Below, one piece after another: positions 40,157 through 56,574 of a DNA stretch of 64,000 bases. Position 1 is the first letter of the stretch. Every line of letters starts with the position of its first letter. The translations under genes and the position numbers were made by a program. The notes beneath the pieces were generated by a model. It made no database searches. It was not told where the DNA came from and saw only the letters and a list, made by a program, of their open reading frames with translations. This stretch comes from Prolixibacteraceae bacterium. GTDB taxonomy: Bacteria > Bacteroidota > Bacteroidia > Bacteroidales > Prolixibacteraceae. The stretch covers positions 1 through 64,000 of the forward strand of contig JABGRN010000008.1 of NCBI GenBank assembly GCA_018648265.1, in the 5' to 3' direction.

Positions 40157-40630
40157 TTATACCGACTCGTGCCGTATTGAAGTAATTAATTCCTCACCTA
40201 ACTGAATGTAGGAATTTGCGCAGCCAATTCTATTGCAAACTCCTATAAATGAATCGAATGCTGCTTTCTTGTTAAGGAAAAGGGCAATGATTTTCCCGCC
40301 GCAATGACAATTTGAAAATGCTGGTAAAGCTTCATTGCACTTCGGACAATATAAATCATATGTATCGTTTTCCTTTATTTTCATCCCAACCACAACACGA
40401 GTTTTGCAACCATAAACCGGACTTAACGCAACAACACCCTCTTGTTCGCCTTTTTTTGCATTTAAAAATATTCCGTTAAATTCATCAAATTTAGCTTTAT
40501 CCGAAATCAGGTTGTGTCCATTCTGACAATAACATTCGGTAAAAAGCACAACATTTTCATCGTCACATATTTTTCTCTTTTTAAGCGGATTGGGGAAAAC
40601 CAGCATTCCATTTTTATTAAATATACCCAC
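40157..40630 (-). CDS. Cys-rich protein of unknown function in the hydrogenase operon
   Basis: A 157-residue soluble protein, starting at a GTG two bases after the maturation-protease gene and closing the hydrogenase operon. It has four Cys-containing clusters (CYC, CPKCNEALP, CHCGG, CNRIGC); the CPKC and CHC pair looks like a zinc ribbon. The N-terminal part (about 25-95) is beta-rich with one CYCQNGH motif. I recognise no family. Position and co-translation argue for a hydrogenase-linked job such as chaperone, metal or sulfur handling, or an accessory electron carrier, but nothing in the sequence proves it. Confidence 0.6.
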   Translation of the reverse strand: MGIFNKNGMLVFPNPLKKRKICDDENVVLFTECYCQNGHNLISDKAKFDEFNGIFLNAKKGEQEGVVALSPVYGCKTRVVVGMKIKENDTYDLYCPKCNEALPAFSNCHCGGKIIALFLNKKAAFDSFIGVCNRIGCANSYIQLGEELITSIRHESV

Positions 40631-40632
40631 TT

Positions 40633-41139
40633 TTATAATTTTTCTGCTATTAAAAATTCATTTGGGATTAGTTCGTTTAAAATGTTTAAAACCTTCATTT
40701 TTATATCTTGATATCGCGAAGCTAATTCCTCTGTAAAATACTCAGAAAACACCATGTCTTCTTTAATTTCTACCGCCAATATAAACATATTTTCCGGTAT
40801 GTCAAATCCTACCGTATTACCCAATTCGAGTGCTGTAATAAAATTCGTATCATGCAAATTTGAAAGATGTAAAGTTTCTTTAAAATCGTTTGGTGTAAAA
40901 AGATAAACATCGCCAATATTACCGCCGGATGTTTTAATGGCATCGATAAAAATCACAGTTTTGTAGCCCTGTATAAATTCCAGGATTTCGAGACCGCCAA
41001 CATTTAATTTCTCAAATATTAACTCAGTCCCTTCATATTTATTTTTTAGGAAATCACATAATTTTGGACCAATTCCATCATCCGTCAAAATGTCGTTACC
41101 AACTCCCAAAACCAATACATTTTTATCACTTTTGTTCAT
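40633..41139 (-). CDS. Hydrogenase maturation protease
   Basis: A 168-residue HycI/HybD-type endopeptidase. The N-terminal VLGVGNDILTDDGIGPKL (about 10-27) holds the nickel-sensing Asp or Glu position, FIDAIKTSGGNIGD follows the second conserved Asp, and SNLHDTNF supplies the conserved His. It clips the C-terminal tail from the large subunit once nickel is inserted. The large-subunit gene ends 22 bases upstream and does have a tail after the DPCFSCATH motif, so the pair matches. Confidence 0.92.
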   Translation of the reverse strand: MNKSDKNVLVLGVGNDILTDDGIGPKLCDFLKNKYEGTELIFEKLNVGGLEILEFIQGYKTVIFIDAIKTSGGNIGDVYLFTPNDFKETLHLSNLHDTNFITALELGNTVGFDIPENMFILAVEIKEDMVFSEYFTEELASRYQDIKMKVLNILNELIPNEFLIAEKL

Positions 41140-41161
41140 ATTGTTTTCTACGGAAATGAAC

Positions 41162-42625
41162 TTATTTTCGTTTCACAGTTCGAATTAAAGTTCCATCCAT
41201 TTCACGAATATTAACAATCATGGGCATTTCACCTGGTAAACTGTGAGTAGCACACGAAAAACAGGGATCGTAAGCACGAAATGCCATTTCGATCATATTA
41301 AGAATTCCATCGGTAACTTCCACCCCTTTCTTAATTAAACCTTGTGCTGCTTTTTTAAGCGACATACAAATGGCAGCGTTGTTGTTGGTTGTGCCTACAA
41401 TCAGGTTGGCTTTTAACACCAAGCCTTTGTCGTCGGTAATATAATGGTGGGTTAAAGTACCCCGTTGTGCTTCAACAATACCAATACCTTCGTTTGGTAT
41501 GTTTGGCAATGGCGATCTTAAATCTTTACCGATAATATCGGGATCGGTAGCCAGTTCAAGAGAACGTTCAGCAGAATAAAGTAATTCAATTAACCTTGCC
41601 CAGTGCATCGCCAAAGTTGCATGAACCGGTTTGCCTCCTAAAATCCCGAACATTTTTTCGTATTCCGATTGTGCAAAAGGGGTTGCCATTCCATCGGCTG
41701 CATTCAACCTCGAAAGTGGTGTTGCCTGGTAAACTCCTGAATCCTGGCCTTCAACAAATCCTTTCCAACCTATTTTTTTGAGGTATGGAAATTTAAGGTA
41801 ACTCCAGGGTTCAACCCGTTCGGCCACAAAATCCTGATAATCGTTAGGAGAGTATTTACAGTGTTCTTCGCCTTCGGTATCAACTACACGCACTTTTCCA
41901 TCGTAAAAATTTACTTTGTTATTTTCATCAACCAGGCCCATCGAGTGTAGTTTTAGTGAATAAGGCCCATTCAAAATCAGATCCACGTATTCTTTATTTT
42001 CAAGAACTACATCGCCAAAAAGATTAAGCGAAAATTTGGCGAAATCGATAAAACCTTTTGCTTTTTTTTCGATATCGGCGCGTTGTTCTTCTGTCAATCC
42101 TTTTCTAACCCCGCCCGGGATATTCATTACAACATGTGTTTGATGTCCGCCAATCAGAGCCTGAATTTCCTGGGCAATCCGTCGCTGTTTTATTACTTCG
42201 GTTCCAATATTGACACCAACTTTATTTATTACACCGAGGATATTCCGCTCTGCTTTTGCCGCAGTAGGACCAACTACAAAATCGGGTGCAGCCAGTGCAT
42301 AAAAATGTGCAATGTGGCTATGTACAAAATGAGCCATGTAAAATAACTCGCGCAGTTTTTTAGCAGTTGGTGGAGGTTCGACCCCGTAAACCGCATCAAC
42401 AGCTTTCCCGGATGCCATGTGGTGGCAACCCGGGCAAACCCCACAAATTTTGGTTACAATTTGAGGCAACTCCTCAACCGGGCGGCCTTCACAAAATTTT
42501 TCAAAACCACGTAATTCCGGGACCTGAAAGTAAACATTATCAACATCTCCCTCATCGTTTAGGAAAATTTCAATTTTGCCGTGGCCTTCGAGGCGGGTAA
42601 TTGGATCTATTGTTATTCGTTTCAT
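41162..42625 (-). CDS. mvhA: NiFe hydrogenase large subunit, MvhA-type (group 3c-like)
   Basis: A 487-residue catalytic subunit. The N-terminal RLEGHGKI motif, the L1 box KICGVCPGCH (Cys61, Cys64) and the L2 box DPCFSCATH (Cys455, Cys458, His461) provide the four Cys that bind the NiFe(CN)2CO centre. The 26 residues after His461 are the extension removed at maturation. The closest family resemblance is to cytoplasmic methyl viologen-reducing/Mvh (3c) enzymes, and the neighbouring MvhG, MvhD and HdrA genes agree. No Tat signal is present in either subunit, so the enzyme works in the cytoplasm. The 71-bp gap before it carries an ACTG-rich repeat. Confidence 0.95.
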   Translation of the reverse strand: MKRITIDPITRLEGHGKIEIFLNDEGDVDNVYFQVPELRGFEKFCEGRPVEELPQIVTKICGVCPGCHHMASGKAVDAVYGVEPPPTAKKLRELFYMAHFVHSHIAHFYALAAPDFVVGPTAAKAERNILGVINKVGVNIGTEVIKQRRIAQEIQALIGGHQTHVVMNIPGGVRKGLTEEQRADIEKKAKGFIDFAKFSLNLFGDVVLENKEYVDLILNGPYSLKLHSMGLVDENNKVNFYDGKVRVVDTEGEEHCKYSPNDYQDFVAERVEPWSYLKFPYLKKIGWKGFVEGQDSGVYQATPLSRLNAADGMATPFAQSEYEKMFGILGGKPVHATLAMHWARLIELLYSAERSLELATDPDIIGKDLRSPLPNIPNEGIGIVEAQRGTLTHHYITDDKGLVLKANLIVGTTNNNAAICMSLKKAAQGLIKKGVEVTDGILNMIEMAFRAYDPCFSCATHSLPGEMPMIVNIREMDGTLIRTVKRK

Positions 42626-42696
42626 AATTATCAGTTAAAGTTCTGAGTTTAAAGTTTAAGTGTTTGTTTTTCACTGAAAACTGCTACTGTGACTAC
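42626..42696. repeat. ACTG-rich intergenic repeat inside the operon
   Basis: A 71-bp gap between mvhG and mvhA contains closely spaced ACTG words (ACTGAAAACTGC, CTACTGTGACTAC, TCACTGC). The same word composition makes up the tandem array at 53688-53825 in the opposite orientation, so it is likely the same repeat family. It has no coding potential. Confidence 0.4.
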
Positions 42697-43689
42697 TCAC
42701 TGCAAACTTTCTTTCACTTTTCTCCTTAATATTGAACCGGGCAAACTAAAGCGGTAAAATGTACCTGCTGGATCTACAATCTGATTTGTTATTCTTTCAA
42801 TTTCCTCTGGTTCGTTGGCGTCAATCATAGTTGCTACTGCCGACATCATTTTAGCTCCCGGATCGCTTACATCGGGAGGCGGGCCGTAACAACCGCGACA
42901 AGGTGCATTTCCTTCTATGCAACGATGACCACATCCTCCGCGGGTTGCCGGACCAAGGCAAATTACACCCTGTTCTAAGAAACAGGTTTCACCGTCGTCT
43001 TCAATTTCAAACGGACGTTTAAACTCTTTTATATGTTTGTTGTCGGTTTTTTTACGTGTACATTCGTCACACTGACCTTTATCGTAAGCGCCAATAACTG
43101 AACCTTTTGGCGGCAACTCGTTTCCTGAAACAATGGCCATAAATACTTCCAAAAGCCGTTCGGTTTGAGGTGGGCACCCCGGCATGTAATAATCTACAAC
43201 AACGGTTTGATCGAGTGTTCGAACATCGTTATAAAATTTTGGTAAAGTCAGTGTCCCTTCTTCAACTTCGTAACTTACATTTGGTAGTGTAGCATCTTCA
43301 TTTTCTGTTGTAATGTTTTTAAGATAAACCTGCTTTAGGATTTCTTCTTTAGTCGAAAAATTAGCCAGCCCGGGTATTCCACCCATGTGGGCACACGAGC
43401 CGTAAGCAACCAATAGTTTTGATTTTTGTCGCAAGACTTTTGCCATGTGTTCGTTTTCGCTGTTGCGTACTGCGCCGTTAAAAAGGGTGATATCAATAAA
43501 TTTATCTTCCATTGCTTCAACGTCGGCATATTTTATGTCTAACGCAATTGGCCAGAAAACAAGATCTGCGTTGGCAACCACATCAAACAATTTCTCGTGG
43601 ACATCGAGTACCGAAACACAGCACCCTCCGCAGGCCGCGCCCCAATAAACAGCCATTTTTAGTTTTGGTTTATTTTTTTGTTCTGTCAT
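42697..43689 (-). CDS. mvhG: Hydrogenase small subunit, MvhG-type
   Basis: A 330-residue iron-sulfur subunit that passes electrons from the NiFe site. The proximal cluster ligands are in GAACGGCC (Cys20, Cys23), GSCAHMGG and MPGCPP. Additional Cys groups in CDECTRKK, CFLEQGVIC, GGCGHRC and NAPCRGCYGPPP (about 205-275) bind the medial and distal [4Fe-4S] clusters. Absence of a Tat leader fits the MvhG group. The ATG at 43689 is chosen over one seven codons upstream because a GGGAGGT Shine-Dalgarno sits just before it. Confidence 0.93.
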   Translation of the reverse strand: MTEQKNKPKLKMAVYWGAACGGCCVSVLDVHEKLFDVVANADLVFWPIALDIKYADVEAMEDKFIDITLFNGAVRNSENEHMAKVLRQKSKLLVAYGSCAHMGGIPGLANFSTKEEILKQVYLKNITTENEDATLPNVSYEVEEGTLTLPKFYNDVRTLDQTVVVDYYMPGCPPQTERLLEVFMAIVSGNELPPKGSVIGAYDKGQCDECTRKKTDNKHIKEFKRPFEIEDDGETCFLEQGVICLGPATRGGCGHRCIEGNAPCRGCYGPPPDVSDPGAKMMSAVATMIDANEPEEIERITNQIVDPAGTFYRFSLPGSILRRKVKESLQ

Positions 43690-43702
43690 TTTAATACCTC
43701 CC

Positions 43703-44128
43703 TTAAGCAAAGTTTTCTATAATCTCTTTTACATGGCATGGGCCTAATCCCCGAACTGTTTCAGTAAACGAATCGGCTAATTCAGCAAATTGTTTTCCTT
43801 CACTTGCACTAATCCATTCTAAATGCAACCTTCCCGGATCAATTCCCATTTGGGCAATATATTTTTTTAGCAAATGATATCTTCGAAGGCATTTATAATT
43901 TCCCTCATGATAATGACAATCTCCAGGATGGCAGCCACAAATCAGCACACCATCGGCACCATCTTTAAACGACTCCAGTACAAAAATTGGATCAATCCTT
44001 CCAGAGCACATTACACGTATAATCCGAATGTTGTGAGCATACTTCATTCGCGAAGTTCCGGCAAGGTCGGCTCCGGTGTAGGAGCACCAGTTACATAAAA
44101 ACGAAACAATTGTTGGTTCAAAATCCAT
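43703..44128 (-). CDS. mvhD: Hydrogenase iron-sulfur (electron transfer) subunit MvhD
   Basis: A 141-residue MvhD-domain protein with the CNWCSYTGADLAG start (Cys12, Cys15), RVMCSGRI and CGCHPGDCHYHEGNYKC; these Cys bind the [2Fe-2S] cluster seen in MvhD of heterodisulfide-linked hydrogenases. It is the electrical connector between the hydrogenase and an HdrA-type flavoprotein. It sits exactly between their genes, two bases after the HdrA gene, and is preceded by a GGAGGG Shine-Dalgarno. In sulfate reducers this domain is fused to QmoB; here it is separate. Confidence 0.93.
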   Translation of the reverse strand: MDFEPTIVSFLCNWCSYTGADLAGTSRMKYAHNIRIIRVMCSGRIDPIFVLESFKDGADGVLICGCHPGDCHYHEGNYKCLRRYHLLKKYIAQMGIDPGRLHLEWISASEGKQFAELADSFTETVRGLGPCHVKEIIENFA

Positions 44129-44130
44129 AA

Positions 44131-45870
44131 TTAACCCTCCTGTAATTCAAATGATTTATCAAGTAATCCTTTTATCTGAGAAAGTATTTGCCGGTCGGTA
44201 AAGTGTTGTGATCTGATAGCACCGGTTGGACAGGCTGATCCACAGGTTCCACAACCTTTGCAAAGAACCTCGTTAACAACCGACACCTGTTTTTCTTCGT
44301 CGAAACTAATAGCGGTGTAAGGACATACGCTAATACAGGTCTGACAGCCACAGCAAGTATCTTCGTTTACTTTGGCCGTGGTAACCTCAACTTCGACACT
44401 TCCTTTATTTATAGTTCCAAGAATTCTTGCAGCCGCGGCCCTTGCCTGAGCGACTGAATCGGGAATATCTTTTGGTGCCTGACAGCTTCCAACAACATAA
44501 ATTCCATCGGTAGTAGTTGCAACGGGGTCGAGTTTCGGATGGCGTTCAATAAAAAACTGGTTGCCGCACATGCTTATCCCAACAGTTTGTGCAAGTTTTT
44601 TTGCCTCTTTATGTGCTTCTTTTGCTACCATCAGTATTACCAAATCGGCAGGCACCTCAATTCTTTCGCCCGAAAGTTTTTCGTCGAATTCGATTAACAT
44701 TTTACAATTATCTTTTGATGAGGCTTCCCTTACTTCAGGCAATCCGTTTTTTTGATCAAACATCAGGAACATAACATTCTTTAGCGAGGTTGCAGAATAC
44801 AACTCTTCACATCCATTTCCCATAGCCCGCATATCGGCGTAAATCTCAAAAATATTAGCATCGGGAATTGCGGAGCGGACAAGATTTGAATATTTTAAAG
44901 CATTCTTACAACAAAGTCGAGAACAATATTCGTGATAGTTTGAATTTCGGCTTCCAACACAATGAATTATTGCAATATTTTGTGGGACATTTCCATCATT
45001 TGTTAGAATTTTACCGGATTTTAATACCTGTTCAAGTTCCAACGAGGTCACTACATCCGGAATAATTCCATATTTATAATTTTGAATTTTTGAGGGATTG
45101 AATGTGCTTAAACCAATAGCCAAAATTATATTTCCAAATTTTAATTCTATTGACTGGTTTTCACTGTTGGTAATTTTAGTTTCAAAATTTCCAATGTAAC
45201 CGCTGATTTCTTCAATTTGGGTATTCAGGAAAACTTTAATGTTCGGATGTATATAAACATGTTCAATTTTGGGATTAATTAATTGGGCTGCGTTGTACAT
45301 AAACGGAGAGATGAGATCTATTTGTGCTGCATAACCGCCCAACTGACTTGTTTTTTCGACAAGATAAACCTGTTTCCCTGAATCTGCTATTTCTAATGCT
45401 GCTGAAATTCCTGAAATGCCCCCACCAACAATAAGGGTTGCAGGGTCTATTTCTACTGAACGTTTATTGAGCGCTTCGTGCCATTGGATCCGATTAATTG
45501 CAGCCGCTACCAGAGATTTTGCTTTTTTTGTTGCATTCTCCCTACTTCTATGAACCCACGAAACATGTTCGCGAATATTGGCCATTTGAAACATGTATGG
45601 ATTTAAACCTGCATTCTCAAGTGCTTTTCTAAATGTTAATTCATGAATTCGGGGAGAACAGGCCGCAACAACCACCCGGTTTAGTTTATGCTTTTTTACA
45701 TCGCTGATTATTAAATCTTGCCCGGGGTCGGAACACATATATTTGTAATCGCGCGATATAACAACATTTGGTAAAGTTTCCATTTCCCTGGACACATCTT
45801 CAACATCAACCATTTTGGCAATGTTGTTTCCGCACCAGCAAACATAAACACCAATTCTAACTTCTTCCAT
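44131..45870 (-). CDS. HdrA-like/QmoB-like flavoprotein with C-terminal ferredoxin domain
   Basis: A 579-residue HdrA homologue. The N-terminal domain keeps the CWCG/Cys46/ACSP iron-sulfur ligands (Cys11, Cys13, Cys46, Cys71), a Rossmann FAD site GGGISG lies at 149-154, and the C-terminus has two complete [4Fe-4S] motifs (Cys506-509-512-516 and 537-540-543-547). The usual HdrA loop with D-C-x-x-C and the inserted ferredoxin next to FAD are missing: at the equivalent place the sequence is MYNAAQLINPK. It pairs with MvhD, whose gene follows, and probably receives electrons from it. The nearest model is QmoB without its fused MvhD. Confidence 0.85.
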   Translation of the reverse strand: MEEVRIGVYVCWCGNNIAKMVDVEDVSREMETLPNVVISRDYKYMCSDPGQDLIISDVKKHKLNRVVVAACSPRIHELTFRKALENAGLNPYMFQMANIREHVSWVHRSRENATKKAKSLVAAAINRIQWHEALNKRSVEIDPATLIVGGGISGISAALEIADSGKQVYLVEKTSQLGGYAAQIDLISPFMYNAAQLINPKIEHVYIHPNIKVFLNTQIEEISGYIGNFETKITNSENQSIELKFGNIILAIGLSTFNPSKIQNYKYGIIPDVVTSLELEQVLKSGKILTNDGNVPQNIAIIHCVGSRNSNYHEYCSRLCCKNALKYSNLVRSAIPDANIFEIYADMRAMGNGCEELYSATSLKNVMFLMFDQKNGLPEVREASSKDNCKMLIEFDEKLSGERIEVPADLVILMVAKEAHKEAKKLAQTVGISMCGNQFFIERHPKLDPVATTTDGIYVVGSCQAPKDIPDSVAQARAAAARILGTINKGSVEVEVTTAKVNEDTCCGCQTCISVCPYTAISFDEEKQVSVVNEVLCKGCGTCGSACPTGAIRSQHFTDRQILSQIKGLLDKSFELQEG

Positions 45871-45885
45871 TTTTTAAAAGTTTTA

Positions 45886-47037
45886 TTAAACAGCTACCGA
45901 AAGTTTTGATTTCAATTGTAATGCACTGGCTTTCTTTTTCATATTAGTAAAATAAATAGCTAAAGGACGATAGGCCAGGTGAGACCATTTTGAAAAAGCA
46001 ACAAATGTTACAACCATTGGGACTTCGAAGGCCAGATGAATTATATAAGAATAATAAGTTGCGAAGGGTAAGCCATTTACCCTAAAAATATGGATCAGAA
46101 TTCCGGTTAAAGCAACCATAAAAAGTAAAACGACAAATATCCAGTCGCTGTGGTGTGAGTATTTAAAAATCTCTTTCTTTTTTCGGACTCTGCCAATCAT
46201 AAAATAGACAGTACCAAAAAGGAATCCAGCAGTAATTATATATCCGATTAAACGTTGTGGGTGATACCATGCGTGGATATCTTCGGTTTGAAACCAGGTA
46301 AGAAAGAAAATAATGAAAATAAACATTGTTACATAACCAATCATTAAAAACCAATGCCCAAACCAGTACATCCTGCTTTTATTGCATTTCGAAAACCTAA
46401 GTTGTGTTGCAAAATGAACTACGGCTTCACCGATTTCAGAAATGTAAATCCAAATGGGAATTTTTACTGATTTGTCTTTAACAATTACCTTGTAATACAT
46501 ATTTAAAATATTTGTTATCAGGAATAACGATAACGACAACAACAAAATATGATCGATTGTGGCTATCATTTCGGGATGTGCAAATGTGTTTAATTGAACT
46601 CCTCCTGCGGGAGTTAATTCACTTAACATCAGCCCTCCAAAGAGCAGGAAAGAAATAATTACAGCGAAAAATAGAAACAACATAACAAAGAGGTGAGCTG
46701 TAAATGATTTGTAGAGAAATCCTGAAAAACCGGTCCAGTCGTAAATTGAAGTTAAATATCGGCGCAAGGCCATCATAATTTCACCTGGGTTTGCGTCGCG
46801 CGGGCAGGTCTCTGAACATTCGCCACAGTAATAACATAACCATGGATCGCCGTTACTTGCAAGTTTATCTTTTAAACCCATTTGCGCTTGCCGGATTGTT
46901 TTTCTGGGAAACAGGATATCTTTTTCAGTAAGTTGACAAATTGCAGTACAGTTGCCACAATGGAAGCAGTCCTTCCAGTTTTTCACCCCGAATTTTTCAA
47001 GGTCGTGCATAAAATTTGGATCCACTCGTGTTGCCAT
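45886..47037 (-). CDS. HdrC-HdrE/QmoC-like membrane-bound iron-sulfur subunit
   Basis: A 383-residue fusion. The N-terminal HdrC-like ferredoxin part has CFHCGNCTAIC (Cys24-27-30-34) and CYYCGECSETCPRDANP (Cys68-71-74-78). The rest (about 105-370) has six hydrophobic helices of the NarI/HdrE type, with several His inside or at helix edges (for example in TIDHILLL, VVHFATQL, FGHWFLM, IIHLAFEV) that could ligate b hemes and form a quinone site. This is the architecture of QmoC. It anchors the complex to the inner membrane and most likely transfers electrons to or from menaquinone. Fifteen and two bases separate it from the flanking HdrA genes. Confidence 0.88.
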   Translation of the reverse strand: MATRVDPNFMHDLEKFGVKNWKDCFHCGNCTAICQLTEKDILFPRKTIRQAQMGLKDKLASNGDPWLCYYCGECSETCPRDANPGEIMMALRRYLTSIYDWTGFSGFLYKSFTAHLFVMLFLFFAVIISFLLFGGLMLSELTPAGGVQLNTFAHPEMIATIDHILLLSLSLFLITNILNMYYKVIVKDKSVKIPIWIYISEIGEAVVHFATQLRFSKCNKSRMYWFGHWFLMIGYVTMFIFIIFFLTWFQTEDIHAWYHPQRLIGYIITAGFLFGTVYFMIGRVRKKKEIFKYSHHSDWIFVVLLFMVALTGILIHIFRVNGLPFATYYSYIIHLAFEVPMVVTFVAFSKWSHLAYRPLAIYFTNMKKKASALQLKSKLSVAV

Positions 47038-47039
47038 AA

Positions 47040-48851
47040 TTAATAGTCATTTATGGTGGTAAGTTTTTTTGCCCTTTTTTCAATATCAAGAAACGACAAA
47101 CTGCTACGTCCGTTTGAGATCTTCCCGTTTAAAATGCTTTGTAAAACTCGCAATGCTGCTGCCGATGCCTGGGCAACTGTGTCGGGAATATCTTTGGGCC
47201 CCTGGCACAAACCGGCAATTGCAACTCCGCCTTTACACGTATTTACAGGGTTACTTATTTTATGTATTTCATTCATCCAGCCATATTTGTCAACAGGAAT
47301 TTTTAGCATCGCAGCCAATTCTTTCGCATCGTTATTAGGTTCAAGTCCCACGGCCAGGATTACCATTTCTACTTTCTGTTCCAGCAAACGACCGTTTTCA
47401 ACATCTTCGCTTCGAACAATCAATTCACCATTGGTTGATTCAACTGATGCTGTCCTTCCTCGAATTATATTTATTCCTTCATTTTTTATTCGTTCGTAAA
47501 ATTCTTCATAACCTTTTCCAAAAGCGCGCATATCTATATAATGCTCATAAACGTCAGCGTCGGGTAGTTTTTCTTTTACCAGGTGTGCCAATTTTAATGA
47601 ATACATGCAACAGACTTTCGAACAATATGCATTATAATTTTCGTCGCGGCTGCCAATGCAATGAATAATTGCGACACTGTCGGGGACATCGGCTCCGATT
47701 GTAAAAATCCAATTGCCTTTTTTGTCTTTGGTCCGGTAAGTAATGTTCCCATCTGTTGGTCCCGCTGCATTTATCAACCTTTCAAATTCAAGCGATGTAA
47801 TAACATTCGGGTGTTTCCCATAACCAAATTGTTCAGCCCGTTTTGCGTCAAATACTTTAAATCCGGTGGCTACAATTATGTTTCCAACGGTAATTTCAAC
47901 TACTTCATCTTTTGCATCTAAATCAATACAATCGGGCACCGGACAAAATTTAACACAGACACTACACTTTTTCCCCTGAACATACCTGCAACTTTCTGCA
48001 TCAATTAAATATTTATTTGGTACTGCCTGTGGAAATGGGATGTAAATAGCTTTTCGTAAAGTTGTCCCTGAATCAAATTCGCTATAGGTTTTGCTGGGGC
48101 ATTTTTCAGAGCATGTACCACATCCTATGCAAGTTGCAATATCGACCCTGCGGGCTTTTTTCAATATTTTTACTTTGTAATTTCCAGCAGTTCCTTCAAC
48201 ACTTTTAATCTCGCTGTAAGTCAACAAGTTGATGTTTTCGTGTTGCCCCACATCAACCATTTTTGGGGTTAAAATACAGGCCGCACAATCGAGTGTCGGA
48301 AAAGTTTTGTCGAACATTGCCATGTGCCCGCCAATAGTCCCTGTTTTTTCAACCAGATAAACTTTTTGGTTGGCGTTGGCAATTTCCAACGATGCCTGAA
48401 TTCCCGCAATCCCACCACCTATAACTAATGTATCGGGGCAAACTTCCGAATCACCTGGTTTTGCGGCATCTAAAAAAGGAACATTGAGAATCGCACAAGC
48501 AACAATGGCTTTTGCCAGTTCGGTATCATTGCTTTCAAGTGCGCCATGTTCTTTAAAATCGGCCAATAAAATATTTTCAACAGGAAGTTTTGAATTTGAG
48601 AATACCGAGGAAAAAAAAGGCTTAATTAGTCCTGTATCGTAACCGGCTATGATTAATCGTTTCAATTTGAACTTCTGAATTTGTGATTCAAGGAATGATT
48701 TATCCCACAAAGGAAAAGTTTCTGAATCCCAAATCACTACAACATGTTTAAAGCTTTCTGAATACTTTATTATTTCATCGAAGTTCAGGCTGCTCACATG
48801 TCCGTTTCCGGGATGGTAAAATAAGATACCGGTTAAATTTTTTTCACTCAT
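47040..48851 (-). CDS. HdrA-like/QmoA-like flavoprotein
   Basis: A 603-residue HdrA homologue and first gene of the operon. The N-terminal domain (1-130) has lost all Fe-S cysteines. The FAD fold (GGGIAG, 145-150) carries the canonical loop TLDCAACILTPKMVDVG (Cys189, Cys192) and the inserted two-cluster ferredoxin (Cys241-244-247-251 and 288-296-299-303). There is no C-terminal ferredoxin domain. This is the reverse of the neighbouring HdrA gene, so the pair together contain one complete set of HdrA cofactors. By family it is a cytoplasmic FAD protein and the possible site of electron bifurcation. In QmoA the same layout occurs. Confidence 0.88.
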   Translation of the reverse strand: MSEKNLTGILFYHPGNGHVSSLNFDEIIKYSESFKHVVVIWDSETFPLWDKSFLESQIQKFKLKRLIIAGYDTGLIKPFFSSVFSNSKLPVENILLADFKEHGALESNDTELAKAIVACAILNVPFLDAAKPGDSEVCPDTLVIGGGIAGIQASLEIANANQKVYLVEKTGTIGGHMAMFDKTFPTLDCAACILTPKMVDVGQHENINLLTYSEIKSVEGTAGNYKVKILKKARRVDIATCIGCGTCSEKCPSKTYSEFDSGTTLRKAIYIPFPQAVPNKYLIDAESCRYVQGKKCSVCVKFCPVPDCIDLDAKDEVVEITVGNIIVATGFKVFDAKRAEQFGYGKHPNVITSLEFERLINAAGPTDGNITYRTKDKKGNWIFTIGADVPDSVAIIHCIGSRDENYNAYCSKVCCMYSLKLAHLVKEKLPDADVYEHYIDMRAFGKGYEEFYERIKNEGINIIRGRTASVESTNGELIVRSEDVENGRLLEQKVEMVILAVGLEPNNDAKELAAMLKIPVDKYGWMNEIHKISNPVNTCKGGVAIAGLCQGPKDIPDTVAQASAAALRVLQSILNGKISNGRSSLSFLDIEKRAKKLTTINDY

Positions 48852-49012: not shown

Positions 49013-49798
49013 TTATTCAAAATTTTTTGCGGTTTGCTTCAATCCCTTAATGTCGGTTAGGGTTATCGATCGGCCATCGATTGAAATAAGATTTTCATCT
49101 TTAAAGTCATGTAAGAGGCGGATTACTGTTTCAGTGGCCGTTCCAACAATATTGGCAAGGTCTTCGCGTGGCAACGAAATATTATGTTTAATTACTGTTT
49201 TTCCATTTGGTTTAAAAACACGGTTTAAAATTAGCAAAGACTCTGCCAGGCGCTCACGGACAGGTTTTTGGGCAATCGATATAATTTTGTCTTCAGCTTC
49301 TTTCAGCATTTTGCATAGATACCCAACAATTTCGGTGTTCATTTTTGGGTATTTTTCAGTTAGATGAAAGAAGAATGATTTATTTACGAAACAAATAACC
49401 GAGTCCTCCAGTGTTGCGGCAGAAGCTGTATATCGTTCTCCATTTAAAAGTGACCGGATTCCCAACAAACTACCTTGAGTTGATAAACGTACAATTTGCT
49501 CTTTACCATCCATTCCAACCCGGTAGATTTTAACCCTTCCTTGTTCTAAACAGTAAATGCCGGTTGGGATTCGGCCTTCATAAAAAACAATGTGACCTTT
49601 TTTATAAAAATTGCATGTTTTATTGTTACTGAGGCTAATTAAATCGAACTCATCCATTTCGCTAAAAAACGAAAGTGCCTTGGTTAAACACGATGGACAG
49701 GATGGACGTTCAACTTTCATTATGAATTCAATTAAAGGTTGATCTTTAAATTCTACGGAGAATTCTATTTCAGGTTTTGAATGTTTGTCATTATTCAT
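49013..49798 (-). CDS. Crp/Fnr-family transcriptional regulator
   Basis: A 261-residue regulator. The N-terminal cyclic-nucleotide-binding-type beta roll (about 45-160) and C-terminal winged helix with PREDLANIVGTATETVIRLLHDFKDENLI (recognition helix ATETVIRLL) are complete. A CPSC pair at 34-37, Cys62 and a Cys (VICFVNK) equivalent in place to Fnr Cys122 suggest a redox- or iron-sulfur-based sensor, though the Fnr Cys29 position is Ser. The ATG at 49798 is chosen; the open frame runs 113 codons further upstream without domain sense. It is co-directional with the hydrogenase operon and 161 bases before it, so it is the natural regulator of that operon. Confidence 0.9.
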   Translation of the reverse strand: MNNDKHSKPEIEFSVEFKDQPLIEFIMKVERPSCPSCLTKALSFFSEMDEFDLISLSNNKTCNFYKKGHIVFYEGRIPTGIYCLEQGRVKIYRVGMDGKEQIVRLSTQGSLLGIRSLLNGERYTASAATLEDSVICFVNKSFFFHLTEKYPKMNTEIVGYLCKMLKEAEDKIISIAQKPVRERLAESLLILNRVFKPNGKTVIKHNISLPREDLANIVGTATETVIRLLHDFKDENLISIDGRSITLTDIKGLKQTAKNFE

Positions 49799-49985
49799 AC
49801 TTAAAGTGATAAAAATCAGGATAACGTACTTTAGATTATTAAAAAGAAACCTTCGTAAAGTTGCTTCGTTGAAATAGGCATGAGAAACCCTTATTTTATG
49901 AAGAATATTTACGATGCAAATTTCATTTGATGCCATAAAAAACAGACACTGCAAACTAAATGAAAAGCATAATAATAGCTGCCAA

Positions 49986-50720
49986 ATGAAAAGGGTTATT
50001 TTAAGTGTTAAATCTTCCTGGGTGCCCCTATTCCTGATTATTCTTTTTATTACCGTAACAACATTGTTTGCCCAGAATAAATACTTTGCCGATTTAAGGT
50101 TGAGAATGGTAAAAACCCAAATCGAAGCGAGGGGCATTAAAAATGAAAATGTACTTCAGGCATTTCTTAATGTTGAAAGGCACCGGTTTGTTTTACCTGC
50201 TTATATTTCGGTTGCTTACAAAGATTCTCCTCTTCCAATTACGGAAGGTCAAACAATTTCTCAACCCTACATAGTAGCTTTTATGACTGAAGCTTTGGAA
50301 TTAAAACCAACCGACAAAGTCCTTGAAATCGGAACCGGCTCAGGATACCAGGCTGCAATTCTGGCTGAAATTTGCGATTCGGTTTTTACCATCGAAATAT
50401 TTGAGTCGCTTGGGAAAAAGGTAAAATTGCTTTATGCAGAATTAGGCTATAAAAATATTTTCTGCAAAGTTGGCGATGGATACAAAGGCTGGACCGAACA
50501 TGCACCTTTTGATGCAATTATTGTTACCTGCTCGCCAACTCATATTCCTGAACCATTAAAAAACCAGCTTGCTGAAGGTGGCAGAATGATAATTCCTGTT
50601 GGCAAAGATCCCATTCAATATTTGGTTTTACTTGAAAAGAAGCGCGGAAAAATTCGGGAAGAAACAATTTTGCCGGTGCGGTTTGTGCCAATGTTGGATG
50701 AGGAAGGGAAGAAGTATTAG
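49986..50720 (+). CDS. pcm: Exported protein-L-isoaspartate O-methyltransferase
   Basis: A 244-residue PIMT. After a hydrophobic N-terminal signal (about 9-31, ending LFAQ) comes the classical fold: EARGIKNENVLQAFLNVERHRFV, ISQPYIVAFMTEALEL and the SAM loop VLEIGTGSGYQA. It methylates L-isoaspartyl residues so they can be repaired. The signal segment suggests the periplasm, as in some Bacteroidota. The ATG at 49986 is used because the upstream 24 codons are not signal-like. It is divergent from the Crp/Fnr gene. Confidence 0.9.
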   Translation: MKRVILSVKSSWVPLFLIILFITVTTLFAQNKYFADLRLRMVKTQIEARGIKNENVLQAFLNVERHRFVLPAYISVAYKDSPLPITEGQTISQPYIVAFMTEALELKPTDKVLEIGTGSGYQAAILAEICDSVFTIEIFESLGKKVKLLYAELGYKNIFCKVGDGYKGWTEHAPFDAIIVTCSPTHIPEPLKNQLAEGGRMIIPVGKDPIQYLVLLEKKRGKIREETILPVRFVPMLDEEGKKY

Positions 50721-51223: not shown

Positions 51224-51403
51224 CGGAGTCGCAATAAAGATGCAATTTCACTGTAGGAAAGAGTGTTCTTTTTTATTGTTTTGCAGCTGATAGTTTACAA
51301 CGCGAATAAAATACCAAAATATATATTCTATAATAAAAACATGTTTGGGACGAGTTCCCCTTGGCGATGGGGGATTGGTCTAAAAGTGTTATATTTAAAC
51401 GAA

Positions 51404-53686
51404 ATGAATTCTCTTATGAGAACCAGCTCCACAAAAAATATTAATATTAAAATTAAAGGCCTTGTTCAGGGAGTTGGTTTTCGTCCGTTTGTTTATCGCG
51501 CTGCTTTAAAAAACGATGTTTCCGGGTGGGTAAAAAATCGGCAAGATGGAATTCTAATTGAAGCCTCAGGAAAAACAAAAAATGTTGATTCGTTTTTTTC
51601 AAATCTAAAAAATGATTTCCCTGTTGCTGCTCAAATTCAGAATATTCAGGTTTCGAATTCGGGTAAGTTTTATAAAAATGGTTTTCAAATAATTTTAAGT
51701 GATGAAAACTCAGGACAAAATGAAATCACACAAATTGGCCCCGACATTGCAGTTTGCAGTGACTGTTTGGAAGATTTGAAAATACAAGCTCATCGCTCAA
51801 ATTATCCGTTTATTAATTGTACCAATTGTGGCCCCCGTTTTTCCATAATCCGCGATTTACCCTACGACCGCGAAAAAACCACAATGGACGTTTTTAAAAT
51901 GTGCCCGGTTTGTAAAAGTGAATATCAGAATCCCGACGATAGGCGTTTTCACGCTCAACCCGTAGCATGTGTAAATTGTGGCCCAAATTATAAATTTATA
52001 TCAGGGGAAAAAGTAACTGAAAAATTTGATGAGGTTCTAAACCAAACTTCTCAATTTATATACGAAGGGAAAACTGTTGCCATAAAAGGAATCGGCGGAT
52101 TTTTTATTGCTTGCGATGCAACAAATGGAAATGCTGTTAAACGTCTGCGAAAACTAAAAAATCGCGAGGGAAAACCTTTTGCCGTTATGTTTAAGGATAC
52201 GGATATAATTAATCAGTTTTGTTTTTTAAGTGAAAAAGAAAAAGAAACTCTCATATCATGGCAGCGACCTATTTTAATTCTTAAATCAAAAAACAAACTT
52301 CCCGAAAGTGTTAGCAATGGCATAAATACCGTGGGTGCGATGCTTCCTTACATGCCATTTCATTATTTACTTTTTGAAAAATTAAAAACACCGGCAATCG
52401 TTTTTACCAGTGGAAACTTTTCCGACGAACCAATTATTATTTCCAATAAAAAAGCTGAAACTGAATTACCTCAAATTTGTGATGCAGTGGTAACATTTAA
52501 TCGCGAAATCTTCAATAGATCAGACGATTCGCTTTTACAGGTAATAAACAGAAAGCCACGATTAATGCGTCGTTCAAGAGGCTGGGCGCCAAACCCGGTT
52601 TATTTGAATTTTGATGTTGATGGAATTTTGGCAACCGGTGCTGAATTAAAAAATACTTTCTGTCTGGGAAAAGGAAAACAAGCAGTTCTTAGCCAACATA
52701 TTGGTGATTTGAAAGATTTTGAAACCCTCTCGTTTTATGAAAAAAACATTCAGCAGTTTCAAAAAATGTTTTGTGTAAAACCGGCTTTGGTTGTTCATGA
52801 TTTTCATCCTGAATATCTCTCTACAAAATATGCCATGAAATCCGGGTTGCCAACTTTTGCAGTGCAACATCATCATTCTCATATCGCATCTTGCATGGCC
52901 GAGCATGGTTTAGATGAAAAAGTGATTGGTGTATGTTTCGATGGAACCGGCCTTGGAGATGATGGAAATATTTGGGGGTCGGAATTTTTTGTTTGCGATT
53001 TAATGGATTATAAACGAGTGTTACATTTTGAATATATCCCGCTTCCCGGTGGCGATGCAGCAACAAAAGAACCATGGAAAATAACCGTTTCATGGCTTTA
53101 TAATATTTATGGAAATGATTTCCTGAATTTTAATTTGCCATTCCTTAAAAATATCTCCGAAGAAAAAATTAGCTGGATAATAAAAGCCATCGACAAAAAA
53201 ATTAATTGTCCTTTAACTTCGGGATCCGGAAGATTATTCGATTCCGTTTCGGCTTTGCTCGGATTGTGTAATTATTCAACATTTGAAGCCGAAGCACCCA
53301 TGAGACTTGAAAATATTGCTGCTAAAAATGAATCTAGAAATTATTCGTATAAACTGTCACGTATCATAGATTTTTCGAAAATGTTTACCGAAATTATACA
53401 AGATTTGAAACGAGAAGTTGAACCTGAAAAAATTTCAGCAAAATTTCACAATACGATTTCGGAAACCATAATAAATGGTGTAAAAAAGATAAGCAAAAAT
53501 ACAGGATTGAAAAAGGTGATTTTGTCGGGAGGAACTTTTCAGAACAGGTATCTTTCAGAAAGGACAGAAAATAAACTGGTGGATTTTGGGTTTCAGGTTT
53601 TTACCAACAATTTGGTTCCTTGCAACGATGGCGGAATTTCATTGGGACAACTTGCAATTGCAGCGAAGAGAAGAGGAAGAAAGTGA
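51404..53686 (+). CDS. hypF: Carbamoyltransferase HypF
   Basis: About 760 residues. It converts carbamoyl phosphate to a thiocarboxamide on HypE, the source of the CN ligands of NiFe hydrogenase. Domains in order: acylphosphatase (GLVQGVGFRPFVYRAA), two zinc fingers (CSDC..CTNC and CPVC..CVNC, about 110-195), YrdC-like (about 205-385, KNREGKPFAVMFK) and a Kae1-like C-terminal domain with HHHSHIASCMAEHGL and FDGTGLGDDGNIWGSEF. The open frame extends 47 codons further up, but that part crosses a hairpin repeat; the ATG at 51404 gives the normal length. It is followed by a tandem repeat, then hypC. Confidence 0.93.
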   Translation: MNSLMRTSSTKNINIKIKGLVQGVGFRPFVYRAALKNDVSGWVKNRQDGILIEASGKTKNVDSFFSNLKNDFPVAAQIQNIQVSNSGKFYKNGFQIILSDENSGQNEITQIGPDIAVCSDCLEDLKIQAHRSNYPFINCTNCGPRFSIIRDLPYDREKTTMDVFKMCPVCKSEYQNPDDRRFHAQPVACVNCGPNYKFISGEKVTEKFDEVLNQTSQFIYEGKTVAIKGIGGFFIACDATNGNAVKRLRKLKNREGKPFAVMFKDTDIINQFCFLSEKEKETLISWQRPILILKSKNKLPESVSNGINTVGAMLPYMPFHYLLFEKLKTPAIVFTSGNFSDEPIIISNKKAETELPQICDAVVTFNREIFNRSDDSLLQVINRKPRLMRRSRGWAPNPVYLNFDVDGILATGAELKNTFCLGKGKQAVLSQHIGDLKDFETLSFYEKNIQQFQKMFCVKPALVVHDFHPEYLSTKYAMKSGLPTFAVQHHHSHIASCMAEHGLDEKVIGVCFDGTGLGDDGNIWGSEFFVCDLMDYKRVLHFEYIPLPGGDAATKEPWKITVSWLYNIYGNDFLNFNLPFLKNISEEKISWIIKAIDKKINCPLTSGSGRLFDSVSALLGLCNYSTFEAEAPMRLENIAAKNESRNYSYKLSRIIDFSKMFTEIIQDLKREVEPEKISAKFHNTISETIINGVKKISKNTGLKKVILSGGTFQNRYLSERTENKLVDFGFQVFTNNLVPCNDGGISLGQLAIAAKRRGRK

Positions 53687-53870: not shown

Positions 53871-54101
53871 ATGTGTCTAAGTATTCCGGCAAAAATAGTA
53901 TCGATTAATGGCGAAAAAGCCCGGGTTTCCTTGGGTGGCGCAGAATACAATGCTGCACTTAATTTAGTGGAACATGCGAAAATCGGCGATTATGTTTTAT
54001 TGCATTCTGGTTTTGCAATTCAAATAATTGATGAAAAAGAAGCTATGGAAACCATGCAATTATTAAATGAGGTTATTAAGAAAGAAAAAGAAAACGAGTG
54101 A
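53871..54101 (+). CDS. hypC: Hydrogenase assembly chaperone HypC
   Basis: A 76-residue HypC/HupF protein with the essential N-terminal MCLSIP (Cys2). It carries the Fe(CN)2CO precursor with HypD and delivers it to the large subunit. The last four bases overlap the hypD start (GTGA), so the two are translationally coupled. The first 70 residues are typical; the C-terminus ends in a Lys/Glu-rich tail. Confidence 0.95.
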   Translation: MCLSIPAKIVSINGEKARVSLGGAEYNAALNLVEHAKIGDYVLLHSGFAIQIIDEKEAMETMQLLNEVIKKEKENE

Positions 54102-55177
54102 AGCACATTGACGAATATAGGGATAAAAAACTGGTTGACCTGCTCCTGAAACAGATCTGGGAAACCAGCAAAACTCCTGTCCGGTTAATGGAAGTTTGTG
54201 GCGGGCACACTGTTGCCATTCGCAAATTTGGAATTCCAGAATTACTGCCATCAACCATTAAATTGTTAAGTGGTCCCGGTTGCCCGGTTTGTGTTACCGG
54301 AAAATCGTTTATCGATAAAGCAATTAAATTATCTAAAATTCCTGAGACAATAATCACAACATACGGCGATTTAATGCGGGTTCCTGGTTCAAGTTCAACA
54401 TTAGAAAATGAGAGGGCGAATGGAGCAGAAATCCGAATGGTTTATTCGCCATTGGATTCTATTGAAATAGCAAAAGAGTATCCATCAAAAAAAATATTTT
54501 TTCCGGGTATTGGTTTTGAAACTACTTCACCGGCTACTGCTGTGACTGTTCTTCAAGCGAAAAAAGAAAAATTGGATAACTTTTTTTTGTTGAGTGCCCA
54601 CAAAATTATGCCGCCTGCAATGGAAATGCTCATCGACGATGAGGTGCAAATTGATGGCTACATTTGTCCGGGGCATGTGAGTACAATCACCGGTTCGGGA
54701 ATTTATAATGGAATAGTTGAAAATTTTGGATTGGGCTGTGTAATTACCGGTTTCGAACCTGTTGATTTATTACAGGGAATTTTAATGTTAGTTAAACAGT
54801 TTGAATCTGGAAATCCTAAAGTTGAAATTCAATATAAACGGGCTGTAAAAGCGGTAGGGAATATAAAAGCATTAAAACTTTTGGATGAAGTCTTTGAACT
54901 TAAAGATGATTGGTGGCGGGGATTGGGGAATGTTCCTAAAAGTGGGTTAAAACTAAAAACTGAATTTAAAAAATTTGATGCAGAATTAAATTTTCAATTG
55001 AATTTACCAGAGCCAAAAGAGGAAAAAGGGTGCATTTGTGGAGAGATTTTGAAGGGATTGAAACTGCCAAGCGATTGCAAAATGTTTGGCAAAATTTGCA
55101 CGCCCGAAAATCCGGTTGGGGCATGTATGGTTTCAACTGAAGGATCGTGCCAGGCATTTTATAAATATCAATTATGA
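54098..55177 (+). CDS. hypD: Hydrogenase maturation protein HypD
   Basis: A 359-residue HypD starting at GTG. It has the conserved CGGHTVAIRKFGI (about 31-43), GPGCPVCVT, FPGIGFETTSPATA, GYICPGHVS and the C-terminal iron-sulfur ligands CICGEILKG and CKMFGKICTPENPVGACMVS. The [4Fe-4S] cluster and the Cys41-type residue assemble Fe(CN)2CO together with HypC and HypE. Its end overlaps the hypE ATG by four bases (ATGA). Confidence 0.96.
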   Translation: MKHIDEYRDKKLVDLLLKQIWETSKTPVRLMEVCGGHTVAIRKFGIPELLPSTIKLLSGPGCPVCVTGKSFIDKAIKLSKIPETIITTYGDLMRVPGSSSTLENERANGAEIRMVYSPLDSIEIAKEYPSKKIFFPGIGFETTSPATAVTVLQAKKEKLDNFFLLSAHKIMPPAMEMLIDDEVQIDGYICPGHVSTITGSGIYNGIVENFGLGCVITGFEPVDLLQGILMLVKQFESGNPKVEIQYKRAVKAVGNIKALKLLDEVFELKDDWWRGLGNVPKSGLKLKTEFKKFDAELNFQLNLPEPKEEKGCICGEILKGLKLPSDCKMFGKICTPENPVGACMVSTEGSCQAFYKYQL

Positions 55178-56190
55178 ACAGAGATAAAATTTTGTTAAGT
55201 CACGGTAGTGGTGGAAAAAGGAGTACCGATTTAATTCAGAATTTGTTTTTCAACTATTTTGATAATAAAATTTTAATTTCTGGCGGCGATTCGGCAATTC
55301 TAAATATTCAAACAAACAATCTTGCATTTACTACAGATTCTTTCGTTGTCGATCCCCTGTTTTTCCCTGGCGGCGATATTGGTAAATTGGCAGTTTGTGG
55401 AACGGTAAACGATTTAGCTGTTTCGGGGGCAGTTCCAAAATATTTAAGTGTTGGTTTTATAATTGAAGAGGGATTGGAGTTTGACGTTTTGGAGAAATTA
55501 GTAAAAAGTATTGCTGAAACGGCTAAAACTGCAAATGTTAAAATTGTTACCGGCGACACAAAAGTGGTCAACCGGGGAAAATGTGATAAATTATTTATTA
55601 ATACAAGTGGGATTGGTGAATTGGATTCCAAATTCAAAAAAATAAGTTCTGGAGAAAAAATTCAACCGGGTGATAAAATTTTAATAAACGGTTTTATTGC
55701 CGATCATGGAATTGCAGTGATGAGTGCCCGCAACGAATTAAAAGTTCAGGCTGACGTTCAATCTGATTGTGCGCCCTTAAATGGATTAATCGGGGAAGTT
55801 TTGGCAATTTCGGAAAACGTAAAATTTATGCGCGACGCGACAAGGGGTGGTTTGGCTACAGTTTTAGCTGAAATTGTCAAGAACAGAAATTTTGGAATTC
55901 ATTTAATTGAAGAGAAAATACCTGTTCGCGAAAGTGTTCGGGGAATGTGTGAGTTTTTTGGTTTCGACCCGCTTTATGTTGCCAACGAAGGGAAAGTGGT
56001 GATGATTGTTTCTGATAATGATGCTGAAAAAGTGTTGGAAAAGTTACAGAAAAATGAGTTTGGGAAAGAGGCTCAAATTGTAGGGGAAGTGGTGAATGAA
56101 CATTCTGGCAAAGTGGTTTTGCAAACCCAAATCGGAGGTAAACGGATAATCGACATGTTGTTGGGCGACCAGTTGCCAAGAATTTGTTGA
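55174..56190 (+). CDS. hypE: Hydrogenase maturation protein HypE
   Basis: A 338-residue member of the PurM-like family that dehydrates a C-terminal Cys thiocarboxamide to a thiocyanate with ATP. It begins ILLSHGSGGKRS, has TRGGLATVLAEI, and ends in PRIC, with the terminal Cys essential for cyanide transfer. Translationally coupled to hypD; hypA begins 45 bases after. Confidence 0.96.
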   Translation: MNRDKILLSHGSGGKRSTDLIQNLFFNYFDNKILISGGDSAILNIQTNNLAFTTDSFVVDPLFFPGGDIGKLAVCGTVNDLAVSGAVPKYLSVGFIIEEGLEFDVLEKLVKSIAETAKTANVKIVTGDTKVVNRGKCDKLFINTSGIGELDSKFKKISSGEKIQPGDKILINGFIADHGIAVMSARNELKVQADVQSDCAPLNGLIGEVLAISENVKFMRDATRGGLATVLAEIVKNRNFGIHLIEEKIPVRESVRGMCEFFGFDPLYVANEGKVVMIVSDNDAEKVLEKLQKNEFGKEAQIVGEVVNEHSGKVVLQTQIGGKRIIDMLLGDQLPRIC

Positions 56191-56235: not shown

Positions 56236-56574
56236 ATGCACGAATTGTCAATTGCACAATCGATTGTTGAACTTGCTAATGAAATTGCCGTAAATGAGAA
56301 TGCTGAAACAATTCAAACTATCGATATTGAAATTGGTGCATTGTCGGGTGTGGTTTTCGAAGCTCTCGAATTTGCTTTGGAAATGACAGTAAAAAATACA
56401 AAACTTGAGGGGGCAAAAATTAATTATTTGAAAATAAGCGGACTTGCAAAATGCTCAAATTGTAAATTTCAATTTAAAACTAACGATTTGCTGGCATTTT
56501 GCCCAAAATGTGACCAAGCGAATTTCAAAATAATTAATGGAAAACAATTGAGGATAAAATCGTTAACTGTATAA
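56236..56574 (+). CDS. hypA: Hydrogenase nickel insertion protein HypA
   Basis: A 112-residue HypA with the MHELSIAQ start (His2 is the nickel ligand) and a zinc-ribbon CSNC...CPKC in the second half (about 74-96). Together with HypB it delivers Ni2+ to the large subunit after Fe(CN)2CO is in place. Sixteen bases separate it from hypB. Confidence 0.95.
   Translation: MHELSIAQSIVELANEIAVNENAETIQTIDIEIGALSGVVFEALEFALEMTVKNTKLEGAKINYLKISGLAKCSNCKFQFKTNDLLAFCPKCDQANFKIINGKQLRIKSLTV

Follow-up and report, generated by a model that had tools for sequence, protein, structure and literature searches.

The window analysed here, a stretch of 64,000 nucleotides from the genome of a Prolixibacteraceae bacterium, carries on its minus strand, at 40157-48851, an eight-gene operon in which a group 3c-type [NiFe]-hydrogenase is joined to a Qmo-like membrane module and HdrB is absent. 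We lean, with some caution, towards the view that this operon encodes a membrane-bound H2:menaquinone oxidoreductase that would also serve ferredoxin by flavin-based bifurcation. Our observations concern gene content, conservation, cofactor ligands, the failure to find HdrB, and markers of menaquinone routes. This view draws on the conservation of the operon, on a hydrogenase that is found wired in either of two ways, on complementary cofactor losses, on a Lys and a Glu at the flavin adenine dinucleotide (FAD) site, on the ligands of QmoC, on the menaquinone markers and on energetics.

An Mvh-type hydrogenase operon with a Qmo-like module

An earlier note on this DNA described eight co-directional genes; all open reading frames (ORFs), their strand and their spacing were verified, and the gene names proposed there agree with matches to Pfam and NCBIfam. 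In transcription order they are hdrA1 (47040-48851), qmoC (45886-47037), hdrA2 (44131-45870), mvhD (43703-44128), mvhG (42697-43710), mvhA (41162-42625), hycI (40633-41139) and cys (40157-40630), with gaps of 2, 15, 2, -8, 71, 22 and 2 bases, where the -8 presumes a TTG start of mvhG. HdrA1, a QmoA-like flavoprotein of 603 residues, has an FAD domain, an inserted domain for two [4Fe-4S] clusters and the equivalent of Cys197; it is without the C-terminal ferredoxin domain and has lost the ligands of the N-terminal cluster. HdrA2 (579 residues, QmoB-like and without a fused MvhD) has the N-terminal cluster ligands, the FAD domain and the C-terminal ferredoxin domain, and is without the inserted ferredoxin domain and the Cys197 equivalent. 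QmoC (383 residues) combines an HdrC-like domain for two [4Fe-4S] clusters with about six membrane helices and conserved His. Family matches identify mvhG as the hydrogenase small subunit and hycI as a maturation protease gene.

MvhD (FlpD), the linker between hydrogenase and HdrA, matches the FlpD model at 181.6 bits and has six Cys that are invariant in 45 sequences. The best match of MvhA is VhuA, an NCBIfam model named for the F420-non-reducing Vhu enzyme, at 381 bits, short of the equivalog cut-off of 800; that of MvhG is VhuG at 226 bits (cut-off 450). The two flavoproteins score 553 and 578 bits against an HdrA2 model whose cut-off is 1100, and QmoC matches the QmoC equivalog model at 201.3 bits, below the cut-off of 300. 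The [NiFe] large subunit, MvhA, contains ICGVCPGCH and AYDPCFSCATH, the latter followed by a C-terminal tail of 26 residues. The corresponding motifs L1 (ICGxCxxxH) and L2 (AYDPCxxCATH), which define the large subunit of group 3c (PMC6085437), occur in all 35 MvhA of hybrid operons, and the partners that mark this Mvh-type group, MvhD and MvhG, are both present. No second MvhA match was found in the same genome at E<=0.001.

A conserved operon in Bacteroidota

We scanned genome contigs with a QmoC alignment; the loci named here are the best 80 of at least 504 confirmed relatives. The earlier note had proposed that the same gene order be sought in related genomes, and it does recur, in 45 of these 80 loci, while 34 have another order and one (L091) is undecided. 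An mvh gene is in view in 37 of the 45 window-type loci. The full run hdrA1-qmoC-hdrA2-mvhD-mvhG-mvhA is complete in 29 of the best 80, all of them window-type. The incomplete window-type loci mostly abut a contig end, L044 and L050 have mvhA upstream of hdrA1, and mvhD was left unlabelled by the ORF filter in L039, L046 and L049. Because the run recurs across loci, we reject chance adjacency of its genes. By taxon, the 45 loci comprise 41 Bacteroidota, two Chlorobiota (L082 and L085), one Aminicenantes (L027) and one SAR324 (L031), whose contig ends before mvhD and whose genome has a best MvhA match of 40%. The nearest named QmoC among the listed loci, at 94%, comes from a Mariniphaga metagenome-assembled genome (MAG).

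QmoC in the place of HdrB

An MvhA at least 70% identical to that of the window occurs in 32 of 393 genomes of the same order. It is wired to a QmoC-type module on the same contig in 21 of them and accompanied by hdrC-hdrB-hdrA with mvhG-mvhA in six; the remaining five are truncated by contig ends. Three genomes (G058, G269 and G130) carry an additional set ordered mvhD-mvhG-mvhA-hdrA1-qmoC-hdrA2. When we searched for HdrB in these 32 genomes and in a further relative, G007, it was found at 64% identity or more in six of the 33, which are exactly the six where hdrCBA replaces hdrA1-qmoC-hdrA2. The idea that an hdrB gene elsewhere might accompany the operon in every relative thus fails. In the window's genome, which like that of G007 is rated 100% complete, an HdrB query from a Bacteroidales hdrCBA locus found no match at E<=0.001, and the CCG-domain family PF02754 matched two proteins only, one of them LutA-like and the other a CCG protein encoded next to an Fe-S/membrane gene (names given by eye). 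We therefore reject an HdrB hidden elsewhere in this genome. The earlier note was right that HdrB is missing, from the operon and, by the HdrB query, from the genome, and its description of a hydrogenase of group 3c type coupled to a Qmo-like membrane module, with no HdrB, is supported. Since one hydrogenase is wired either to HdrCB or to HdrA1/QmoC within one order, QmoC appears to stand in the place of HdrB; judged by gene content, it replaces HdrB in otherwise matching operons.

Two complementary HdrA paralogues

We aligned 48 HdrA1, 49 HdrA2 and the six HdrA of hdrCBA loci, leaving out HdrA1 and HdrA2 shorter than 540 residues. The Cys197 equivalent, the eight Cys of the inserted ferredoxin domain and four Cys near the FAD are kept in all 48 HdrA1, none of which has the C-terminal ferredoxin Cys. 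None of their four N-terminal Cys is kept in 32 (including that of the window), and one is kept in 16. Conversely, all 49 HdrA2 keep the four N-terminal Cys, the four Cys near the FAD and the eight C-terminal Cys, and Cys197 and the Cys of the inserted domain are missing from every one. Together the two proteins hold one set of everything, with only FAD and its cluster doubled. In the structure known from methanogens, the N-terminal cluster of each HdrA receives a ligand, Cys197, from its partner, the inserted domain serves ferredoxin and MvhD feeds the C-terminal domain; complementary losses in HdrA of anaerobic methanotrophic (ANME) archaea were interpreted as heterodimer formation (PMC9012536). 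Paired as a heterodimer, HdrA1 and HdrA2 would have a single path leading from MvhD to FAD and a single one leading to ferredoxin.

The locus L080:6661-15041, from an Aminicenantes MAG, encodes a protein of 1098 residues composed of a NuoG/HoxU-like N-terminus and two HdrA halves, followed by qmoC, mvhD, mvhG, mvhA (46% to the window's MvhA) and a protease-like ORF. We counted this fusion of both halves beside qmoC-mvhD-mvhG-mvhA in favour of a bifurcating complex.

Two residues of the flavin site point in the same direction. Equivalents of Lys409 and Glu356, which we take to be FAD contacts from their role in a structure of 2017, are kept in all 48 HdrA1 and all 49 HdrA2. Among the QmoB-like proteins of other clusters (the apr-linked one not counted), the Lys is found in one of 35 and the Glu in four of 35.

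A proposed route to menaquinone and its energetics

QmoC carries two b hemes. We compared 55 window-type and 40 other QmoC: the eight ligand Cys are present in all 55 and three His in all 95, and the protein shows six hydrophobic stretches. The N-terminus matches HdrC by sequence (E 4e-12) and by fold, with a probability of 1.00 at an E of 0.08 at best.

We infer from these features the assembly of the predicted complex, its electron path, both acceptors and its direction. MvhA-MvhG would oxidise H2 in the cytoplasm, and MvhD would hand the electrons to HdrA2, where they would enter the C-terminal ferredoxin domain and move on to FAD. HdrA1 and HdrA2 would form a heterodimer in which a Cys from HdrA1 completes the N-terminal cluster of HdrA2. 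The high-potential branch would run through the HdrC-like clusters of QmoC and its membrane part to menaquinone (MK), and the low-potential branch through the inserted ferredoxin domain of HdrA1 to soluble ferredoxin (Fd). The net reaction would be 2 H2 + MK + 2 Fdox -> MKH2 + 2 Fdred + 2 H+, and it could be reversed when H2 is low. The earlier note suggested a reaction of H2 with menaquinone in which ferredoxin might be a second partner; this is the best-supported reading, with both reactivities predicted.

Menaquinone, Rnf and [FeFe]-hydrogenase markers were counted in 21 QmoC-type genomes among the 27 without hdrCBA; G050, G264, G343, G365, G378 and G406 (90, 80, 72, 82, 82 and 75% complete, respectively) were left out. 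A menaquinone-route marker is present in 18 of the 21, namely PF02621 of the futalosine route in 12 and MenD over its cut-off in six, and the same six have menA over its cut-off. The six hdrCBA genomes show PF02621 in three and neither marker in three; given the small numbers and shared kinship, we draw no test from this comparison. In G269, the hycI gene of the Mvh-Qmo operon has a futalosine-route gene for menaquinone (PF02621; L139:4487-5323) at a distance of about 2.4 kb.

With E0' values of -414 mV for H2, -70 mV for menaquinone and -420 mV for ferredoxin (PMC5861303), or alternatively -500 mV for the latter (PMC9012536), the computed yield of bifurcation at 1 bar H2 is 65 or 50 kJ, respectively. 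By this computation the reaction is still exergonic at about 1e-4 bar H2 or even less; its sign changes somewhere from 1e-4 to 1e-6 bar, below which the reverse is favoured.

Points against bifurcation and competing explanations

Several observations weigh against a bifurcating H2:menaquinone oxidoreductase. The QmoA- and QmoB-like proteins of other Qmo-like clusters show much the same complementary split, which is therefore a Qmo-like trait rather than one special to the hydrogenase complex; since it has also been described for ANME archaea, we make no claim of novelty for it. The same Lys and Glu are present in the genome's own apr-linked QmoA and QmoB, so that neither these residues nor the preserved ligands of FAD and ferredoxin amount to a demonstration of bifurcation. 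In a fold search, the membrane part of QmoC matched no solved structure; quinone binding by QmoC is accordingly proposed by analogy. Neither menaquinone marker was found in three of the 21 QmoC-type genomes (G150, G238 and G312, 87, 93 and 77% complete), and RnfC passes its cut-off in only 14 of them.

The strongest rival, which we hold to be rather unlikely, is a plain H2:menaquinone oxidoreductase with the same path to QmoC, in which ferredoxin is not a physiological partner and the inserted domain is inherited or serves assembly. The reduction of menaquinone by H2 alone is strongly exergonic by our computation, from -66 kJ at 1 bar to -32 kJ at 1e-6 bar H2. The residues that the apr-linked proteins share would suit such an enzyme too, and we know of no proof of bifurcation by Qmo. 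But if ferredoxin had no part, some ligands might be expected to be lost, as the FAD-site residues mostly are in the QmoB-like proteins of other clusters, and all eight Cys of the inserted domain are kept in every one of the 48 HdrA1.

The bifurcating core might also run in reverse in vivo, confurcating electrons from reduced ferredoxin and menaquinol so that H2 evolution acts as an electron sink. At 1e-5 bar H2 and a ferredoxin potential of -500 mV, the forward reaction is computed at +7 kJ. [FeFe]-hydrogenases accompany the operon in 13 of the 21 QmoC-type genomes; that their hosts ferment is our assumption. Yet uptake of H2 is just as plausible a role given the other hydrogenases of the cell, and sequence cannot give the direction. 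We regard this reversal as improbable.

The QmoC module could instead serve a sulfur enzyme, either AprAB or a TusA/DsrE-type cluster, with the hydrogenase as electron donor. The genome does hold two further QmoC relatives. One (L198, contig C12) lies in an aprB-aprA-qmoA-qmoB-qmoC cluster in which aprB and aprA pass their cut-offs, QmoB is fused to MvhD and QmoC, at 384 bits, passes the equivalog cut-off; a gene for a 236-residue protein resembling phosphoadenosine phosphosulfate reductase lies nearby (by eye). The other (L197, contig C81) belongs to a Qmo-like cluster behind DsrE-like and TusA-like genes, which were read by eye in L197 and L103 only. Clusters of the latter type have a divergent MvhD and a small ORF before qmoC, a gene order met in many of the 34 other loci, and are possibly sulfur-carrier:quinone complexes. 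But each sulfur-linked cluster has its own QmoA-, QmoB- and QmoC-like genes, and the operon of the window is without a sulfur gene, which makes this explanation very improbable. With these two clusters present, the complex of the window is a third and separate one. The earlier note's Qmo-like module wired to a hydrogenase stands, with aprBA-qmoABC and another Qmo-like cluster to be added to the account of this genome.

A disulfide reductase with HdrB or HdrD supplied in trans is hardly credible: five of the 27 non-hdrCBA genomes have an HdrB relative at 38-41% elsewhere, four have only matches of 23-27%, and the CCG protein of the window's genome is encoded on contig C14, but 18 of the 27, including the window's genome and G007, show no HdrB match at E<=0.001, and the operon contains QmoC, not HdrC-HdrB.

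Exchange of the acceptor module

We used the hdrCBA-type loci of one Krumholzibacteriota and one Anaerolineae genome as outgroups. In the MvhA tree and in the tree of joined MvhD, MvhG and MvhA, the hdrCBA rows of the window's order are nested inside QmoC-type rows, and the starred branches force two changes of partner. Yet by an approximately unbiased test the data are compatible with a single clade of hybrids (p 0.323 for MvhG, 0.121 for MvhA and 0.065 for the joined set), and the MvhG tree sets five of the six hdrCBA rows apart, which limits the claim to at least one exchange. By its phylogeny, then, the hydrogenase has had at least one change of partner; the MvhA and joined trees favour another, a return to HdrCB, whereas the MvhG tree leans otherwise. 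In a QmoC tree made with a quick method, some hybrid rows are interspersed among others; QmoC too may therefore have been exchanged. We tentatively propose, as a picture whose chances we place a little short of even, that bifurcating hydrogenases linked to quinone are widespread among anaerobic Bacteroidales, that one lineage of cytoplasmic [NiFe]-hydrogenase swapped its acceptor module, perhaps more than once, between HdrCB, a soluble disulfide reductase, and QmoC, a quinone module of the membrane, and that the quinone form works with complementary, non-interchangeable HdrA halves providing one functional path per branch.

A Desulfobulbaceae locus (L228) was dropped as another QmoC-hydrogenase hybrid because it has a CCG protein. 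This protein accompanies a cluster of an HdrA-like protein (953 residues), MvhG and MvhA; in the MvhA match, a single in-frame TGA is read through and may encode selenocysteine.

Relation to known complexes

The closest described system is the Mvh-Qmo-Hdr cluster of Archaeoglobi. Ca. Methanoglobus hypatiae has, and transcribes, MvhAGD, two HdrA (one QmoB-like) and a QmoC fused to HdrC, without HdrB; the same source cites this set for Ca. M. nevadensis and proposes, as a hypothesis there too, bifurcation of H2 to menaquinone and ferredoxin (PMC10945360). The likeness is one of gene content to a published description; the hosts differ in being archaeal methylotrophic methanogens, and the portion of that source available to us does not give the HdrA ligand pattern. 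The uniqueness implied by the earlier note is not supported, since both the set of subunits and the reaction had been put forward before for Archaeoglobi, and one Aminicenantes and two Chlorobiota MAGs contain the cluster as well. An association of Mvh with a QmoB homologue in A. sulfaticallidus was a speculation (PMC3949148), and bifurcating Mvh was counted only with HdrABC in the accessible part of another survey (PMC6085437).

The complex resembles HdrABC-MvhAGD, known from methanogens and found in six genomes of the window's order, in MvhA, MvhG, MvhD and the HdrA fold and ligands, and the MvhA of these six are 78-80% identical to that of the window. It differs in having no HdrB, HdrC only as a domain of QmoC, a membrane part, and two complementary HdrA paralogues between which the clusters are split, instead of a single HdrA with all clusters. 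With the QmoABC of organisms that reduce adenosine phosphosulfate it shares a QmoA/QmoB-like pair and QmoC. Unlike them, it has a hydrogenase instead of AprAB, no aprBA in the operon, an unfused MvhD, an HdrA1 that keeps its N-terminal region with most of its Cys gone, and a QmoC at 201 bits, below the cut-off of 300, against 384 for the apr-linked one. In ANME archaea and Moorella, HdrA heterodimers that are fused or encoded in tandem likewise have one HdrA with the N-terminal cluster and another with Cys197, but the partners named for them are HdrBC, HdrD, FdhAB-like or MetFV proteins, and the parts of the source at hand do not mention QmoC (PMC9012536). We found no description of an Mvh-Qmo cluster in Bacteroidota in the open-access literature searched. 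The idea has thus been published for archaea; that literature yielded neither the bacterial form nor its spread among Bacteroidota nor an exchange of the acceptor module.

Genomic context

Upstream of the operon lies a gene for a Crp/Fnr-family regulator (49013-50137, minus strand), whose ORF of 374 residues probably reaches too far at the N-terminal end, the relative in G007 having 235 residues. On the plus strand follow hypF (51263-53686), a hypC-like ORF of 76 residues (53871-54101), hypD (54098-55177), hypE with its AIRS domains (55174-56190), a hypA-like ORF of 112 residues (56236-56574) and hypB (56591-57406), which has a CobW/HypB/UreG domain and a His-rich N-terminus; the hypC- and hypA-like ORFs were named by eye and hypF, hypD and hypE by family match. 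The hydrogenase occurs in two of the 37 genomes of the window's genus, at the same genomic place in both. In stretches of about 19 kb inspected in seven genus-mates without this hydrogenase, no relative of mvh or hyp was found; the gene at 49914 is present in five of the seven, and in G001 it directly adjoins the gene at 57560. The whole island was likely gained or lost. The GC content is 0.39 in the operon and 0.36 in the rest of the window, a weak signal that we did not use alone.

The last gene of the operon encodes a Cys-rich protein of 157 residues that adjoins hycI in several relatives. It matched no Pfam or NCBIfam family, and its AlphaFold model (mean confidence, pLDDT, 82.6) no solved fold, at E<=0.001. 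Relatives of 133 residues lie near a Crp/Fnr gene in three loci (L089:6544-6945, L151:11926-12327 and L161:8019-8420), and the L089 copy has weak zinc-ribbon matches. A Group A6-type [FeFe]-hydrogenase with an N-terminal NAD-dependent epimerase/dehydratase domain is convergent with the Mvh-Qmo operon at L142:3984-7298; ORFs of about 1104 residues adjoin the operon in several further loci (domains checked in L142 only). The window's own genome has both RnfC and an [FeFe]-hydrogenase.

Implications

Annotation by hydrogenase type alone would suggest the disulfide reaction of Mvh/HdrABC for this operon, though HdrB was not found in the window's genome. If our reading is true, anaerobic Bacteroidota would have a single enzyme at which H2 is coupled to both menaquinone and ferredoxin, and bifurcation of the Hdr type could have its quinone branch tested in a bacterium. 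The two natural wirings of one hydrogenase lend themselves to a comparison of what determines the acceptor.

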